A stretch of DNA of 64,000 nt from Arctopsyche grandis (taxonomy: Eukaryota > Arthropoda > Insecta > Trichoptera > Hydropsychidae). Positions 775 to 51,428 of this stretch are shown here, piece after piece; positions within the stretch are counted from its first letter, which is position 1; every line of letters begins with the position of its first letter. The DNA lies in assembly GCF_051622035.1 (NCBI RefSeq), contig NC_135355.1, positions 6,560,001 to 6,624,000 on the forward strand. Reading direction: 5' to 3'. A model generated the notes under the pieces. That model was not told the origin of the DNA. It saw nothing but the letters and a program-made list of their open reading frames with translations, and searched no databases. The position numbers were made by a program, and so were the translations under genes.

Positions 775-3700
775 ATGGGAGGCGGGACTCCTCTGAGCGC
801 TCGCTGGGCGCAAATGGACCAGCAGAGGCGAGAGCTCGAGCGCCGCAAACAGCTCTATCTTCAGAAACAACTGTCGCAGCCCCCGCCGCCCGCCAACCCC
901 ACGCCCACCCCCACACCCACCCCCACACCCAACCCCACCACCTCCACCTCCACCTCCTCGCCCACTGTCACTGCTCAGTAATACCCCATTATACTAAATA
1001 CATGTGCAATAATGCGACCCTATCGTTATCTGCAGTTTCGTGTATTTATATTTCAGTAGATCAGCACCGAATCATAGCGCTGATGCCGCGAGAATGGCCA
1101 TGGTGAACGCCTTCTCTAACGATGGCTCGTTTTTAGACAAGTTCAAAAAGATGTCTGAAACTAAGAGCAACTCTAAACTGCCCAAAGTCACTAAACAGTT
1201 TCACAACAAGCAGGATTCTGAAAAGAAAAATGATTTTAAAAGTAAACATGAAAAGGAAAGCAAAAGTGTCCAATCGGACAAACACAAAAGAGACTCTTCT
1301 AACTATCATCGCAGCAGAGATAGAAGTAGAAGTACCAGCCGAGATAGAGATAAAAAATATGTTAGACGGAATAAAAACGATAAAAGCAGCCATCGGTAAT
1401 TTTTTTATTTCATTGAATTGAGTTCATCTCCATAACTATGTAATTTGCTTATCTTTATCATTTTTTTTTTAAATCAACAATTGAATTGATCCAATTTTTA
1501 TTGTTATTTACAGAGATCACAAATTCAATCGTTGGGAATCTGGCAGTCGTGGTTCACGAAGACGTTCTTTTTCCCCTTGCACACCTGTCGTCGAAGATAT
1601 GCCCCATCGGAAACCATCCCGATTTGCAAACATCCTACCGCTCAATATTTCCAAGTCGACTTCGTATCCCGTGAATTTGCATGCGAATCAACCCAAAGTC
1701 TTCGGCAATCAAAACAATCTACAAAATCAAATTAACTTCCCAATCTTCCCCGATCAAGTCCTGAACAACCCCATAACGAAGCAGATAAATCTGAACCTGC
1801 AGTCTATATCGAATCCGGCGATCAACACTCAAATGCCACCTCCGATCACAATTCCCCCTCCAAACATACCCCCACCGATGCAAATGAATCAAAACTATAA
1901 CAATCCTATGATGCAAACTACGTTGCCAAAGAACATGAACGTTTCGATACCGCCGTACGTTGAAAATTTAATGGCGAATAATTTTCTACCACTGTCGAAT
2001 CGAATTTGTACCTCGATTCCTCCACCTTTGATTAATGACCGTATTCCTCTGATGATGCAGCCACCGATGACCATGCTGCGACTGATCGGCGAAAATTTTA
2101 CTCGGCATATGCCACTGCATGCGATTCCGGAGCCGAAGCCGATCGATACTGTATCTATTCCACCACCTAAACCTTTGGACACTATAGCCATTCCTCCGCC
2201 GAAGCCTTTGGACGCTATCACCATTCCTCCTCCGAAGCCGATGAATCTCCACACTATACCTCCACCGTCTCCCATCTGTCTAACGCAAATTCCCAAACCG
2301 AAAGAATTGGATTTGTGCTCGATACCACATCCGCCCATTTCAGGTAAGATATATATTAAGACTACACATTTAAAATGATTTTCATTTTAAGTGTGTATAT
2401 AAGGAATAGGCAAATGGATCAAAATTTGTATTGAAAGTACGTCCGTATTATACGTTAACGTGTCTTCCAATCCTGTAATCAAATTTTTTTTTTTTTTTTG
2501 TGTAAATATCTATGCACCACTTTGTCTCTCTTTCCTCACATACTCTCTAAGATCTTTGTATACGGAAAAGAAACCATGGAAAAGTTTTCAGCTCGAGACC
2601 ACTTTACATTTAAAATGTGATTTGGATCGGTAGTGTTCAGTGTTCAGTTCAATATGTGTGGTAATCGTTGTTGTACTTCAAATTCTTTATAAATTGAGGG
2701 CCCATTTGTTGATTAGTGTTGTGTAGTTCTCTCAACAGATGGTTGTTTGTCGGCGACAATGGAAGCTACAGCCAATCAGGTGGCTCGAATCGGAGATGTC
2801 TGGGAGCTCACGCTGAAAGCGCAAAGCACAAATGCTGACATGTGGTAATATAGCTACCTGCGACTTACAACCTATTCACTTAAATTTGCTGAAAGCAAAC
2901 AGTTGCGGGGGAACACTGTATTTATTATATACATATATATATATTATATTCAAACATTATTCATGTGTGTATAAATTCGTACCGACACGCCGTACGACAT
3001 ACGAATTTATATCCAGTAAAAATATGCATGTATAAACCGTAATCATCTGCAATGGATAATAAGTGCTCATTTTTGAGCAATGATAAGTACTTGAATTTAT
3101 TAACAAAAGTAATTGCACAGTTTATAATTTGGACTAATTTATTTTTTTGTTTACTCTTGTATTAATATCACTGAGCGACAAAAAAAAAAAACACTTTTTT
3201 TCTCTTACCGGAGCCGAGATTAATCAATTTTTAGTAAATTTGACCCACTAAATTCATATATGACAATGATTTTTGGTGGTTTTTTTTCGTCGTTTATGAG
3301 ATATGAGCCTTTAAAAAAATGCGCAATGGTCTTTAACTCAAAATATAGTATTGCTGTGCCTAAAGTAAGTATTGGAATTAATAATCAGATGGTTTTTCTA
3401 TTGATTGTGAGTTTTTATTATTACTTTAAAATACGTATAATTAATTATTTAGCGAATTTTAAAAGTCAAAAATATTATATTATTTTTTTTCTCGAGCTAT
3501 CATGAATTTATTGGACCGGTTCTATATTTCACTACGTTTGCTAGGGTTGGTTTTCAATTCCAATATTTTTTTTATTTTATCTGGTAAATGATTCGCACGG
3601 GCTACATATAAACGTTTGAATACAGATTCGCCATTAGAAGAAGAAATGATTTTATAGTGAAAAATATGAAATATCATCGTTCGTAAGTTTCGGTATGCAA

Positions 3701-6700
3701 ACGTGAGCGAGTGAGATGGAGTGATGCGCTCTCCATTCTTTATGTCGCTCTTGACATGCGTATACAGTATATTCCTTGGCTCAATTTAAAATCATTTACC
3801 GCATCTATATAATAAAATAAAAAATATTGAGTTAAAAATCCAATCCTTAAATATGTAGTGTTGGGATTGAACGAAAGGCTGATGTATGGGCTATGGCTGA
3901 GAAAGGGTATGTTACGACCGATTGTAGAGAGGGGATGGAAAAGCGGCAGAGGGCGCGAAAGGACCGCTATTTTACAGTTAGTAGAAGTTAACCTTCCACT
4001 GGGGGCGGTTGGTCGTTAAACCACCGCGTGGTGTCGTTTTAATAAACAACATGACTGAAAACGCACGTGTTTGATCTTCAATTCCACCGCCACATCCCAT
4101 CGTGGTCCTGAATAGCGTCATCTATTCAGGAATTCCACCCACAATTGGAGGCTCGTCCGGGATTAGGCGGCAGTTTGAAGACCACGTGCTACAATGTATC
4201 GGAGGAGGAGGCCGACATCTGGTCGTAGGACGTCGAGAGGGGTTCGGGAGAGGGCGATAGAAGAGCCAGTCGCCAGCCGAGCCAAGCTGACTTTCCAAGA
4301 CATGGAGGGCGCCGTCCCCATTTTCACCGGAAACGACGACTATCCGGTAGAAAAGTGGGTGGCGCAGATCGAAGAAGTCGCACACTCGGCAGGTTGGGGC
4401 AGCATGGAAAAGCTGCTGTTTGGGAAACGCCTGGTCAAGGGGGTGGCCGAGAGGTTCCTGCGCATACAAGATGGGGTCTATTCGTGGGAGAAACTCAAAA
4501 GCGCATTACTGGAGGAGTTCGCTCGGATGGTGAGTGGGGCGTCAGTCCATAGGAGGCTGTCCAAGTCGCAGAAAACGTCAGAGGAATCGGTCAACGAGTA
4601 CTTTTACCGGATGCGGGAGATCGCGAGCGTGGGTTCGATCGAGGATCGCGACCTCATGGAATACGTCATCGACGGGATCCCTGGCAGGTCTTCTATGAAG
4701 GGGATGCTGCATGGTGCCCGCAATTTGAAGGAGTTCAGGGACAAGTTGAGCGCCTTCGAAGGGCTGGTGGAAAAGGTAAAGGCAGAAGAAGCAGCCGCAA
4801 CCGTAGCCACGGCCAAAGCAGTGCCCGCACCCTCAACTGGAGGCAGCTGGAGACCCAAGGCGAGGACGCCGGCACTGATCGACACAGGCAGTGAAGACAA
4901 CCTCGCCGGCGAGAACTTCGTACATCGATGCGGCATCATCACTAGTGAAAGTGTTCCTGTGGTAAGAGACCAATGTAACAGCTCCGGTGCCATTCGTAGA
5001 AAAGCTGCGGAAGGAGTAAGGAGGGCTGATTCGGACTTGAAGGATGGAGAGCAAGAAAAAATCAAAGTGGAACGCGATAAAACGTCAAAACCACGAGTTC
5101 CGATCGAGGTCAAGTTGGAACAGAGTCTGCGGAGGGAAAAAGAAGAACGGGCTTCACAAGAGATGTCTGCTCATGCAGAACCCAACGATTCCTGTTCAAG
5201 CGAGGCTGATGGAACATCAAACATGTCACATGGTCAGATGGTGAGGACCCCCTTAGAGCCTCCAGCGTCGCCGTCTCGAGCTCATCTGGACTATTCTTCA
5301 GTGCGACCGAACACAGAAAATCGATCATCAACCACAGATTCAATTAGGATGAAGAATGATGAAAGTAAGCATCGCAAACCATGTGGAATAGACGTTTCCA
5401 ATAATGAAGAGGACGGTGTAGACATGAGTGATCGAAGTGAGGACACGGGTAATGGAGGCCTGGACATGGGTGATGGAAGTATGGACGGTGATGGTTTGCA
5501 TATTGGAAGGCTTTGGGACAACGGAGACATGGCGTTTTCAAATAAAGATGAACCGCCCGATGGTCAATTCAGTAAAGGGTCTCATGGTCATTCGAAGAAT
5601 CCTAAAGATGAAGACGAAGAAAATGGGAAACATGAAGAAAAAGATATGGATAAATCACCAGAAGGAATAAGAGACCCAGTCAAAATTTCAACACCAAAGG
5701 ACAATGTATTCACTTTCAAGCTCGGTCGTAGTCAGATTGATGTTACTTTAATGGAAAATAAAATAAGACCATGGATTAAGAAGGGAGTTTTTGGATATAT
5801 CGGTGAACCAGGAACGATATTGGTCAACTTCATATGTGGCAAGATACCATATGGAAAGCCGTGGGGCGACGGGAGGTCCATCGCGGACAACATCATCGGA
5901 CAGCCGCGTGGAATCGCGACTGGCATCGGATAGTGTTTAGGTTGTGCCGATTGAAGTGAAGTGTGTGTCAGTGAATTAGAGAATAAGTGGAGTACCCGGA
6001 GGGGTTTTAGTTAAGCCTTACATCATATTTGATTATTGTTTTATTTTGTTAGTAGTTATGATTTGAAATATTGTTAATGTTTTATTGATTATTCTAGTGT
6101 TTTCATGTTTTGGCGAGTGTTTGGTATGTTGAATAATGTTTTAATTTGGTTACATGCCTAGAAGAATATGAGATAATTGTATTGAAATGTAATTCTAGTG
6201 ATGTTTTAAAATGTGATTTGTTTCCGATGTAAAGGTGTTGATTTTAATGCTATGTAATTCTTGTAATGGTTTTAAAATGTGATCTGTTTCCGATGTGAAG
6301 GTGTGGATTTTAATGCTATGTATTTCTTGTAATGATTTTAAATTGCAATTGTGATGATTTATGTGTAACTTTAATTGTGATAATCTGTGTGTAACTTTTT
6401 TTGAAGATTGAATTGTATTGAAACGTGAAAAATTTGATATGATACTGAAATATGTTTAAGATTACTGTGGAGTATGTTTGAGATTATTGTGGAGTATGTT
6501 GAAGACTACTGTGAAGTATGTCTGGGATTATTCAGAAGTATGTCTGAAAATTATGTGTAGTATGATTGAGGAATGACCCGGCAGGTGAGAGAAACCTGAG
6601 GGCAGGTTTGTGGTCAGGAAAGGCCGAGTTGTAGTGTTGGGATTGAACGAAAGGCTGATGTATGGGCTATTGCTGAGAAAGGGTATGTTACGACCGATTG

Positions 6701-9700
6701 TAGAGAGGGGATGGAAAAGCGGCAGAGGGCGCGAAAGGACCGCTATTTTACAGTTAGTAGAAGTTAACCTTCCACTGGGGGCGGTTGGTCGTTAAACCAC
6801 CGCGTGGTGTCGTTTTAATAAACAACATGACTGAAAACGCACGTGTTTGATCTTCAATTCCACCGCCACATCCCATCGTGGTCCTGAATAGCGTCATCTA
6901 TTCAGGAATTCCACCCACATATATATATATATATATGGTTAAGTGACAAATTAGCGAAATAAGCTCATAATATTACAGGGAAAAAAAGTATATTTTTGAC
7001 TTTTAAAATAAGTTGATAATTAATTATAAGTATTTTAAAGTAATAAAATATCACAATCAATAGAAAAACATCCGAATATGGATTCTAATATTCATTTTTG
7101 GCACAGCAATACTAGATTTTGAGTTAAAGACTGCAAAAGCCAAAAATCTGTAAAAATTGCGCTTTTTTTTTTTTAAGGTTATATCTCATAACTGAGAAGA
7201 AGCCAACAAAAATCAGTGTAATATTCGAATTCAGTGGATCAAACTTAGTATAGATTGATTTTTTTTCCGCTCCAGGAATTTTTGTTGTTGCTCAGTGAAT
7301 TTAACCCTTTTAATCCCAAGCTATTTTGCGAGGTACATGCGAAGAATCCCAAAACATTTATTTGAAAAAAGTGGTAGTCTTCATTTTCTTATTTATCTCA
7401 GCTAATTATCAATTCTCGGTATCAATTTTTTTTTGTGATGTCATCTCCATTATTAATAAGTAATATTTATTTATAGGTGTAAAGCAAATAAATGAATACA
7501 AAATTTTTATTTTGAATATAGTGATTTTTCAGTTTGAATGTTGAACGACTTTTGAAGTAATACTTAATATTATTTGTAAAATAAAAATCAAGTACCAAGA
7601 AATTCTAAAAATAAATGTTGGTTATCTCGATATGTTGAATATGCAGTAAGGATTTAAATTTAACAATTTTTGTATAGTAAATAAATAAAAAAAATTGCGA
7701 CAAAATGTGTTCGAAAACGGGTGCTGATAAATCAATCAGTCCCATGGGATTAAAAGGGTTAATTCATATCAGTGGCGTATACTTCTTAGCTAATTTTCAT
7801 TTAGTAAATTCGCGACACGCTACTGTTTCTTTTTTTTTTGCTAAATAGTCGATTCTAAAAATTATGCAAAGTTTTCATTTAAAAATTATCCATCGTCGAC
7901 TCATATTTTGCGTATCATCTTACAGGTACTTTTGATGAACCTTTTTATTGGTGTTGTTTGCGCATTCCTTTTATTAATTTTATGCTGAAACTTCTACTTT
8001 TAAAGGTTTCTGCCTGAGGTCAAAAATGCAGACTGCAAAATGTCTAGGGATGTGAAATATTATAGCGGAAACGATAATTTGACTTGCGTACAACAAAAAA
8101 TATCCGACGACGAAAAATACGAACCGGAATTCAGTCTGCGTGACGATTCCAGCTCTGACGGAGAAGACTATGCACCTCAGAACAAAGTGCATTCTTCCGA
8201 CGATCAGAATTGTTCAATGTCGAATCCGATCATATTGCATTTCGAAAAGAATAAAAGCGAACAAAAAGACATAAGCTTGTCAGCGTCGAACAAGTTCAAA
8301 AATGATTTAGACAACGATTCCGATTCGGGCAACAATTCGGCCGTCGTTAAAAAGAAGGAATTGAAAAGGAAAAAATCAAGATGGGGCGATTCTTCGGCGC
8401 CAATTGTAGTTAATAATGTAGGATTACCCGGAGTAGCGACTATCAGCAGCTTGGGAGGTAACTTTGCTCAATTACAAATGCATTATATGATGAAAATTAT
8501 TCATTTTTTAAAACTTTTTACATATGTACGTTTGCATAGGACTCATCAACGTGAATCATGTACCGACATTTCCTCTAAATTCGCAACCGCAGCTTACAAA
8601 AATCACTAGACAAGACTCTGGACTCATTCAATACGCTATCAAAACGTACGGTAATGTTAATCTTTCGGAAGAAGATTGGAAGAAATGCGAAGATCATTAT
8701 AAAATCAGTATACTCTATCAGGTAAAATGGTCACCTTTATCGCTTTAAAGCAGTGTTTAATTGTAAATACTAAATGTGAACATTTTATAGGAAATGTTGA
8801 AAAAACGTCGCGAAATTGAAAAATTGATGTCATCAGGTCGATTTAAATACGAGTACGATTCGGATGAGGAGATCGACGAGCACGGAACTTGGGAGCATAG
8901 ATTGCGTCAGCAAGAAATGGAAGCCACTCAACGCTGGGCTTGTGAGCTGACGAGACAAGCTAGCGGAAAACATCACATTGGAGACTTCTTACCACCGGAT
9001 GAACTTAAAAAGTGTGTTTTCAATTGAAGTATGTATGTATGTGTGTGTGTGTGTGTGTGTGTGATTATTCCTAATTTTAATTCGTGTAAATTTCAGATTT
9101 ATGGAAAAGTATTCTTCAGTCAAAAGCGGCAAAGAGCCAGATCTCAGTGATTACAAAGAATACAAATTGAAGGAAGATAATATAGGTAAAATATTATGTA
9201 CATGTTACGTACTCGCTCAATATTGAAACAAGCAGTTGATCCTATCGGTGTTTAAATGTTTTAGGTTTCAAAATGCTTCAGAAATTGGGTTGGAGCGAAG
9301 GGGAAGGTCTAGGAGCTGACCGATCTGGTATCACAGACCCTGTCAATAAGTATGTGAATGTTATATAACATTTAGCCTTGATGAATTTTGTTTTTGAAGG
9401 TTGTTTGTACGTGTATATGTATATATGTTTTAATTGATTGTATTGTTTAATATTTCAGAGCACCTCAAAGAGATTCTAATCACGGTTTTGGAGTTGAAAG
9501 AGTTGATAATTTAGCCGAAGGTGACGATGAATTTGATGCCTATCGTAAGCGAATGATGTTAGCTTATAGATTTAGGCCAAATCCTTTGGTAAATATGTTT
9601 TATATACATATTTTTAGAATCACGTATAAAGAGAATGCTTATACCTTTTGAGCCAAGTAAATTATTCGGAACATGCTGTAGTAGATAAGCACATTGATTT

Positions 9701-25206: not shown

Positions 25207-28037
25207 TGGCGCAGGAGGACGAGGCGGGGCCCAGCGGCACCCTCGCCCCCACCCCCACCCCCATGGCCCTGCAGCCCCCTCAGCCCCCTCAGCACCCGCC
25301 ACCCCCTCAAACCCTCCCCACTGCGGAGCCTCCGCCCCCCGCACCCGCCCTCACCCCCGCCGCCCCCGTCAACGACTTTGACACATCTAGTAAGTGACCC
25401 AACCTCAACTCGCACATTTAATAACAATTCGTACCCCACGTGAAATATGACTTGATTCATACATATTACTTATGACATTATTGTTAATTTAGTATAAAAA
25501 CAATAAATCAAATTTTCAATAGAATTTTAACCTAAAATTATTATAAAGAACCTCATACTTAAGAAACAAGTGATTCATTTATTTATTACTCATCGTTTTT
25601 GAATATTCTCTAATTTTTGAAAATTTCTATATCTGTATGTATTATTCCTTATATAATTTTCTTTGTTCTTTCATTATTGACATTTTTATTTACCAAATTG
25701 TAAATATACTTAGCCAAAATTAGTAATTACTGAGGTCAAATAATGAACAACTACATATAGATATATATTGCATTATATGCGAGTATGTTTTATATACTTT
25801 ATATACTCATAATAGTTCAAATACATATCGAAAAATATGTATTAAAAAAAACCAGTATTTATCATAAAACTAGTATGTATATATATGTTGTGAAAATTGT
25901 TTTAATTTATTTTATAACTATGGCTATTATATATATTCTGATAACTATCAGTTATCGATACATTGCTAATAGACTATTAATGCATCATCTATTGCATTTA
26001 CGACGTTGTGTTTATTTACTCGATATACTTGACACACTCTTTTGACGCCTTCAAGTTGGTTTATGTTTGCAAATTTCTTAAAAATAATATTGATATTTAT
26101 CAAAGTGATGTTGAAATACATTACATTGTTTTGATTTCAGAAACTACCCAATCTCGTAAAGAAGAGAGTCCGTTTTCGTTCAAGCACTTCCTGAAGCGAG
26201 ATCTGTCTTTGCCAACCACGTCTAGTTCGTACGAGAGCACCGGAGCCAAGCCAAAGATATACGCGAACACGGTTCACCCGTCGCCGGCCAAGGCGAATTT
26301 GCATCAAGAGTTTCGCAAAGATGCCAAAATGTCGTCCAGAGAGAGCTGGGCAGGTCCCAGCAACGCCTCATCCGATAGTTCCATAGAATTAATATTAAAT
26401 ACAAACACAGCGACGGAATCAAAAAAAATTCTGGAAATTGACAATTGTGACCTGTCGTTTAGGAGATCTCACACGTCCAGCGACGTTTTAGGCATGCCGT
26501 CTTTGCCCGACTTCGTACAGGACCACCTGCTGGTCGAGCAAGCCTATCTGGGCTCCAACGGGCCGTTCACGGTCGACTTTGACAATCTCCCCGACTTCAC
26601 GCTGAGCTCCAATACTAACTATGACAACGCCCAATCGTCGCACGACAAATCTGATGATTTGAATTACAATGCAAACGCATCAAAGATTGGAAGTTGTAGA
26701 TCTGTACCTTTAGACTTGCCGAGCTTCGTCGAAGATAGATTGGAGGCCGGCGAAAGGGTTGAAAGACGGTGCAGGCCGTCGCCGCTAGATTTGCCCAACA
26801 ACCTTTCACTAGACTTGACGGACTCGTTGAATCACACAAATCATCGGAATTCAAACCAAAGATTACCATTTCCCTTAGATCTTCCGAGAAATGAAAATTC
26901 CACCGGTATATATCGTCTACATGTATGCAATCAACAACTGATACTTGAAATGAATGCTTGTTTTAATTTTATATCCATTGATTGTTGACAGCTGGCGAAT
27001 CTCTCAGACTTCCTGACTTTTTACCAACACAAGTTGGTTCGAGTAACACTGGGCCTATAGGAATTATACCGTCGAATAGAGATGAATTAGCTGAAGAAAG
27101 AAGACGACGAACTGCAGCTGAAAGAGAGTTACGTTCAGCTCTTCAGGTAATATTCGGCTGGATGCTTGTTTTTTTAATAAAGCAATATCATTGTATCAAT
27201 TTTTCTTTACAGACCTCGACCCAACTTCGTAGGGAATTAAAAGCCGCTAAGAACGCAGAGCAAAATGCTCGTAGAGAATTGTTGGAAGCTAGAACTGCTA
27301 ACGCAATATTGGCGCATCAGTTGAAGAGTCGAACCAATCGAACGGGAGTTGCTGGTCCTAGTACTAGTTCAATGTCGGCTTCACACTCTCCAAATTTATC
27401 AGAAGAAGAAAAATTTGCTTCGGTGTGTTTAATACAAATTATTTTAAAAACATTTTAAATTTCTTGATTGTCCTTTGTATGAGAAAAAGTGGAATATGAC
27501 ACGTTCGTGAAAAGTAATGTATTACGGTAGTTTAGTAAGATTTAGAAAATAATCAAACAAAGCAGCATGCTGTTTTTAATGTTGTTCCAAGAATAATAAG
27601 CCTTATCAGCAATTAATTGCATTGAATTTTCTCATAATATTGATTAAATCTTTGGTTTGTTATAGAAATCATTCAGTACTAATGAAAGTAACGTTAATTT
27701 AAAGGCACGAGTTTCTCAACTGAAGGTACTTTATAATCAATTAATGTACTGTATATAAATTTTTGTAAAAAAATTTAAATTGTTTGTATTGTAGGAAGAC
27801 TTGGCTGCAGCTCGCAGGGAAATTGAAGAATTGCGCGGGATCCGTCGAGGGGCATCAGAATCTTTGTACTTGGCTGCAAATACGGCAGAAAACTCGCTTA
27901 GGTAGGCTTTGATAGTCGTATTAAATTGTCGATGAATTATTTCTCAATATGTATATGTATATTTTTCATGTTTCAGAGAGCTTCTGTCTGGTTTAGAACA
28001 GTTACGAGGCCTCGCTTCTTCTCTGAATCCTCCATGA
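25206..28037 (+). CDS. ENTR1: Endosome-associated-trafficking regulator 1-like protein
   Basis: Exons: 25206-25389, 26141-26905, 26992-27146, 27213-27422, 27666-27725, 27795-27901, 27977-28037; 513 residues against ~435 in human. Exon 1 encodes a proline/threonine-rich low-complexity head. Exon 2 opens with SPFSFKHFLKRD, matching the NPFSFREFLK block of human ENTR1 (SDCCAG3), and then has repeated LPDF/LPSF motifs such as PSLPDFVQDHLLVEQ. Exons 3-6 form a coiled coil rich in R, E, L and A. The C-terminal SLYLAANTAENSLRELLSG helix parallels VALQNLRVVMNSAQASIKQLVSG of ENTR1. Human ENTR1 acts at endosomes and in ciliary and cytokinetic trafficking. The name rests on two short blocks plus architecture, so orthology is likely rather than certain. 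Confidence 0.75.
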
Positions 28038-51146: not shown

Positions 51147-51420
51147 TTACACTGAGCAACGAAAAAAATATCGAAGCTGAAATTAAACAATATTTACTAA
51201 ATTTGCACTACTGAATTTGAATATGGCAGTGATTTTTGTTGTTTTTTTTTATGAGATATGAGCGTTTAAAAAAGTGCAATTTTTTAACTCAAAATCTAGA
51301 ATTGCTATGCCAAAAGTGAGTATTGAATAGTCAGATGTTTTCCCTATTGATTTTGTTTTTTTATTACTTTAAAATACTTATTATTAATTATCTAGCGAAT
51401 TTTAAAAGTTAAAAATATAC
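51147..51420 (+). repeat. Interspersed repeat, copy 3 of 3
   Basis: Same family and strand as 3163-3497, sharing TATGAGATATGAGC and the ATTTTAAAAGTTAAAAATATA tail. It ends directly at a foldback MITE. Confidence 0.7.
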
Positions 51421-51428
51421 TTTGTTTA

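Follow-up and report, generated by a model that had tools for sequence, protein, structure and literature searches.

Acute transforming retroviruses carry spliced host sequence in a retroelement and need a helper, and the maize long terminal repeat (LTR) element Bs1 contains a Gag fusion and exists in few copies. To our knowledge, most documented cases of gene capture by LTR elements come from plants (PMC13317346, for plants) and from vertebrate retroviruses. The accessible part of that paper describes Bs1 as holding transduced segments of a plasma-membrane ATPase and of two other host genes (PMC13317346), and a title cited in PMC8672886 refers to fish retroviruses with cellular genes. Here, we describe an LTR retrotransposon of the hydropsychid caddisfly Arctopsyche grandis that carries part of the gene for the splicing factor RBM25; it lies at 3854-6919 of a 64,000-nucleotide stretch (contig NC_135355.1, positions 6,560,001 to 6,624,000; hereafter, the window). 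As in Bs1, host coding segments lie within an LTR element and are flanked by element sequence, here with the introns absent. In contrast to the three genes of the plant element, a single animal splicing factor is represented, by eight exons, at no fewer than 187 places and as a cassette in two element families. The locus differs from gene-capturing retroviruses in being a Ty3/gypsy-type element of an insect genome. It resembles insect Ty3/gypsy elements through its relative L061, in which CCHC, protease, reverse transcriptase (RT), RNase H and integrase share one frame, and through siblings with 4-bp flanking repeats, but lacks RT, RNase H, integrase and the zinc knuckle and has the RBM25 piece instead.

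Titles and abstract openings in the literature on RBM25 and retrotransposons described no capture, nor did those on the Arctopsyche grandis genome and caddisflies describe one of this kind; the accessible part of PMC8881205 concerns the reverse direction, caddisfly genes that contain transposons. Bs1 is a close precedent, and none was found for RBM25 or caddisflies. Since the host gene, autonomous relatives, breakpoints, splice joins, copies and an apparent inter-family transfer can all be seen in one animal genome, the steps leading from capture to spread can be retraced. The system also makes testable whether a host splicing-factor fragment can be recruited into Gag, and by what means defective elements come to exceed their relatives in number.

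Taken as a whole, it is very probable that the element is a non-autonomous Ty3/gypsy retrotransposon that captured spliced RBM25 sequence, kept an open Gag-RBM25 frame and multiplied, its cassette coming to reside in two families. Between two LTRs identical at 289 of 290 positions (sole difference at 3895) runs one 579-codon frame with gag followed by a protease start (ALIDTGSE), which bears out a preliminary description of this DNA. The Gag part matched Pfam Retrotrans_gag slightly below the cut-off (E 4.9e-5; 23.9 bits, cut-off 24.1) and was 91.5% identical in DNA, over 668 bases, to gag of L061, an autonomous element on contig C11. L061, whose LTRs are 100% identical to each other and 99% identical to those of the window element, has a 1264-codon open frame with CCHC, aspartic protease, RT, RNase H, H2C2 and rve (integrase) domains, and a search of it with the captured RBM25 part gave no match. 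Relative to L061, the window element has lost the zinc knuckle and part of the protease at two gaps (Table 1), and pol breaks off at about 4970; its last ~30 codons reappear near 5842 in another frame, where they supply the final 28 codons of the window frame. The RBM25 piece sits between these two pol edges, with short microhomology at the 3' join. The window element has evidently exchanged most of its copying machinery, nearly all of pol, for a spliced RBM25 piece, and is best classed as a non-autonomous Ty3/gypsy-type LTR retrotransposon of Arctopsyche grandis. A non-coding element of the terminal-repeat-in-miniature (TRIM) or large retrotransposon derivative (LARD) type is excluded by the 579-codon coding frame.

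Among the cis signals, a putative polypurine tract was recognised by eye immediately 5' of the 3' LTR, and the putative primer binding site TGGAGGCTCGTCCGGGAT is one that we take to be complementary to tRNA-Pro with one mismatch; ARAGORN detected no tRNA gene within the window that could serve for comparison. Because LTR, primer site and untranslated region (UTR) are shared with autonomous relatives, the chimeras would move by borrowing, in trans, the reverse transcriptase and integrase of L061-like elements and of L062-like elements, the latter belonging to a second family described below. A genome search with the Gag part, in which 149 of 289 candidates were scored and on which the chimera-to-parent ratio rests, gave three further gags outside the chimera class among the matches listed (C1:14629644, C2:31707450 and C3:27790069; 66-83% identity). 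A gag-like match at C6:20948710-20949210 lies within a 2151-codon open frame, longer than the other listed Gag-Pol frames.

The captured part was aligned to the host gene exon by exon. Host RBM25 lies on C3 near 10.887 Mb (genome 475.67 Mb; the window is C1:6560001-6624000), where two adjacent exons match the human PWI region at 65% and 84%, the first ranking top among 150 scored places. A model of the last eleven exons of the gene has AG and GT borders and an open frame, and the frame also stays open in a splice form with a short exon E6 and without E7. Element and host RBM25 share nine collinear blocks (each E ≤2.5e-6, 69-86% identical), and eight host exons aligned in order, from about 4985 to 5845, at 65-86% DNA identity per exon. 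Five of the seven joins are clean and intronless (E4/E5, E5/E6, E6/E8, E8/E9 and E9/E10); E2/E3 also has no intron, but this join falls in an A-run beside a 72-nt deletion, and the E3/E4 join was removed by a deletion of 81 nt. The absence of E7 and of the end of E6 is consistent with a splice form using an inner E6 donor. Collinear exons and absent introns argue that a spliced RBM25 message was captured, the source evidently being an mRNA copied from inside E2 to inside E10.

The preliminary description had likewise held that an RBM25 mRNA was copied into the position of pol and that the frame stayed open, and exon collinearity, the missing introns, pol sequence on both sides and an L061 without RBM25 all bear it out; the mapping onto host exons that it proposed is provided by the C3 gene and its eight exons. 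It had regarded 4960-5680 as unrelated sequence, most of which proved to be RBM25. This identity was settled by the host gene comparison; an approximate human RBM25 query aligned weakly to the middle stretch (score 79; shuffles 51.7 ± 8.2, with 2 of 300 as high), and a protein database search with the region returned 6 candidates, including two Arctopsyche element proteins and no RBM25. Its assignment of 55 codons (5682-5846) to the PWI region held for the first part of the domain only: frame residues 497-551 match residues 20-74 of the 119 in human RBM25 chain 3v53_A (E 4e-11), the last 45 residues are missing and a Pfam scan of the captured part detected no PWI domain. The host RRM exon had no match in the element, where matches start far downstream, at model exon E2. 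Despite the eight shared exons, the element thus differs from RBM25 (RED120) in having neither the RRM nor the greater part of the RE-rich region nor the last stretch of PWI.

Table 1. Features of the window element, in window coordinates
Feature	Position	Strand	Remarks
5' LTR	3854..4143	+	290 bp, TG...CA; 99% identity to L061 LTRs
Putative primer binding site TGGAGGCTCGTCCGGGAT	4146..4163	+	tRNA-Pro-like; similar site in second family
Chimeric frame	4194..5933	+	579 codons: Gag, protease stub, RBM25, out-of-frame pol tail
Gag (capsid) part	4194..4858	+	180 nt including zinc knuckle lost relative to L061, join at ~4859
Protease remnant	4859..4970	+	DTGSE motif retained; second gap, 213 nt of protease relative to L061, join within ACTAG microhomology at 4941-4946
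RBM25 exon E2	4985..5060	+	51/79 identical over 4982-5060; 5' boundary uncertain (4971-4998); lacks 72 nt reaching the exon end or close to it
RBM25 exon E3	5061..5142	+	66/82 identical; end gone in 81-nt deletion removing E3/E4 join
RBM25 exon E4, 3' part	5143..5200	+	50/58 identical
RBM25 exon E5	5201..5309	+	79/103 identical
RBM25 exon E6, short form; E7 absent	5310..5355	+	36/46 identical
RBM25 exon E8	5356..5547	+	112/150 identical; 42-nt insertion in 21-nt tandem repeat
RBM25 exon E9	5548..5735	+	144/188 identical; 15-nt deletion, same in 9/9 element copies aligned
RBM25 exon E10, first part	5736..5845	+	N-terminal part of PWI; 3' breakpoint within exon; 105/149 identical, count includes sequence past breakpoint
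Tail, end of parental pol DNA	5846..5933	+	different frame; stop TAG
AT-rich 3' UTR	5934..6629	+	97% identity to L061 over 672 aligned bases
3' LTR	6630..6919	+	290 bp

The chimera has multiplied through the genome. All 150 scored places, from 225 candidates in a search with the 55-codon PWI piece, matched this piece and none had a stop inside it; 33 were 93-100% identical (window family) and 117 were 64-69% identical (second family and old relatives). Scoring 150 of the 220 candidates in a search with the human PWI region added 37 places other than the host gene, so that the RBM25 piece occupies at least 187 places on many contigs. The copy count proposed in the preliminary description thereby revealed a large family in place of the single chimera it had described, and the dead-end fusion it had allowed for is refuted by the many copies and by their flanks. 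Within the window family, 22 of the 33 places were inspected, namely the window element, 20 siblings (L031-L050) and the degraded L027, together with seven of the remaining places (L023-L026 and L028-L030). Every one of the 20 siblings has an LTR pair, identical in 12, and 19 have an intact frame of 578-605 codons, that of L039 being broken. Matching 4-bp flanks were present in 17 of the 20 (exceptions L037, L038 and L041); 10 of these are TATA, which is cheap in AT-rich DNA, and 7 are other words. Five protein relatives, all from Arctopsyche grandis, were found among the 7993 candidates with most shared words that were scored.

Flank words included TATA, TGTA, TACA, TGCA, TTTA and TGAG, and many copies lie in or beside (AT)n runs, as the window copy does at 6920-6936, suggesting that the chimera family prefers alternating AT-rich target sites. 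L037 has three LTRs in a row, its difference of 6 being that between the first and the last, and L041 has an LTR-element-LTR-partial gag tandem that breaks off within gag. Next to an old chimera copy is a frame of 625 codons (L023:6196-8070, + strand) that matched NB-ARC and ankyrin repeats.

The RBM25-tail-UTR block recurs in a second family, represented by L026, L029 and L030, in which RBM25 units are duplicated in part; these copies have 177- to 204-bp LTRs in identical pairs and frames of 540-588 codons. Their Gag differs from that of the window element (31-34% amino acid identity where matchable), and two CCHC knuckles each were found by Pfam in L029 and L030. The autonomous relative of this family, L062, has a 1306-codon frame, matches the 5' part of L029 at 88% and gave only a weak 30-nt match to RBM25 (E 5e-4). 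Comparison of pol between L061 and L062 gave 58% protein identity and saturation at synonymous sites (proportion of synonymous differences, pS, 0.92), whereas the RBM25 cassettes of the window element and L029 differ at a synonymous divergence (dS) of 0.35; each chimera gag is near that of its own autonomous relative (dS 0.09 and 0.18). This argues that the cassette is much younger than the autonomous split and moved between families, and we infer one capture that was later transferred. The same values led us to reject a cassette that diverged in step with the autonomous relatives. On C9 (3090000-3287000), eight second-family places that share a 168-amino-acid frame and eight gag matches, each containing one TGA and one TAG, are found within 200 kb; the pattern resembles duplication of a segment that carried a dead copy.

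That two retroelement families captured RBM25 independently would suit their different gags, LTRs and autonomous relatives, but is very improbable and is refuted for the copies inspected: the 3' breakpoint and pol-derived tail are identical in all seven chimeras aligned (the window element, L023, L024, L025, L028, L029 and L030), the same five host codons are absent from all nine element sequences of the codon alignment (in L025 inside a larger gap), and the E6-E8 join without E7 recurs in L028, a decayed relative that retains more RBM25. The 5' joins of the window element and L029 are also at about the same place, after the protease. A single capture would have come about through a template switch while a co-packaged RBM25 mRNA was being reverse transcribed, and the cassette would have crossed families by template switching or other recombination. 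A processed RBM25 pseudogene, captured at the DNA level, would be equally intronless, and the tests used here do not separate the two routes; we nevertheless consider the pseudogene route unlikely, given that pol-derived sequence borders both ends of the piece, that the 3' join shows short microhomology and that no separate RBM25 retrocopy was recognised in the part examined of the 150 candidates (of 220) scored with the human PWI region. Nothing was found in favour of an assembly or annotation artefact, the chance of which appears negligible: copies on many contigs differ in their flanks, many with target repeats, and close protein relatives are named in the database (LOC143915612 and LOC143918420). 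The three refuting outcomes named in the preliminary description did not arise: the piece matches the host gene, maps to eight of its exons and recurs at no fewer than 187 places, so that it is no assembly join.

Substitution patterns suggest purifying selection on the RBM25 part but do not establish it. When 20 open copies (the window element and 19 siblings, without L039) were joined in a minimum spanning tree, the captured part had 32 synonymous and 44 nonsynonymous changes, giving a kappa-corrected nonsynonymous-to-synonymous rate ratio (omega) of 0.51 (p 0.0035); omega was 0.35 for the PWI-like end (p 0.0097) and 0.78 for gag (p 0.26). Changes per site amounted to 0.084 in the captured part, 0.058 in gag, 0.200 in the UTR and 0.186 in LTR plus leader. 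Against the host, omega was 0.41 for the window element and 0.26 for L023, with intervals below 1, and 0.57 for L028 and 0.64 for L029, with intervals that include 1. It is quite possible, though not probable, that the RBM25 piece is a passenger, a filler that replaced pol and has no role as protein. Gag and the cis signals would then be all that counts, and open frames would be a sign of recent bursts; the LTR pairs identical in 12 of 20 copies would have left little time for decay. Several results weigh against the reading favoured here, beginning with those that also suit a passenger. Counting each variant codon once leaves a weaker signal (p 0.066 for the captured part, 0.089 for the PWI-like end and 0.26 for gag), the omega intervals of seven diverged-copy pairs (85-100 codons; omega 0.53-0.91) all include 1, and the PWI domain is truncated. 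Moreover, a spanning tree is no phylogeny and ignores recombination, and AlphaFold gave no confident fold for residues 481-579 (predicted local distance difference test, pLDDT, 21-31 with a six-sequence alignment; mean 33.1 over the whole frame). The window copy is flanked by AATA and TATA, with no exact target repeat, and the second family retains its two zinc knuckles, for which the cassette is no substitute there. What a passenger explains less readily is that all six indels relative to the host within the captured part (-72, -81, +6, +42, -9 and -15; two alignment gaps outside it left out) are multiples of three, that this part is less variable (45/903 sites) than the UTR (58/719) and LTR plus leader (27/340; L039 left out throughout), that the 55-codon piece is free of stops in 150 of 150 scored places, across families at dS 0.35, and that omega between the window element and L044 is 0.18, with an interval below 1.

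If the captured part is in use, the element would employ the Gag fusion with RBM25 as a C-terminal RNA- or nucleus-directed extension, which in the window family might stand in for the lost zinc knuckle; these are the least certain steps. Simple RNA binding by the captured part is doubtful because neither the RRM nor a full PWI domain is present and most of the RE-rich part is gone, and for the same reason the nucleic-acid-binding host domain that the preliminary description had seen in the fusion is a weak proposition. The accessible part of PMC10639069 names the RE domain as the part of RBM25 required for binding G-quadruplex RNA. A tether directed to the nucleus or the spliceosome would fit equally well, as would a simple spacer, and both are speculative. 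It is a tentative and rather doubtful idea that the cassette is a working, transferable accessory domain whose fusion to Gag gives a defective element an edge, so that chimeras came to outnumber their autonomous relatives and reached a second family. Such an edge might come from bringing Gag, in the nucleus or close to spliceosomes, to its own RNA, or from replacement of the zinc knuckle in one family.

Elsewhere in the window, positions 26008-27458 contain frames of 326 and 158 amino acids for which Pfam gave no match at E 0.001. The element itself is bracketed by inverted copies (3222-3475 and 6990-7260, 74% identical) of a roughly 260-bp repeat, which occurs a third time at 51150-51427.

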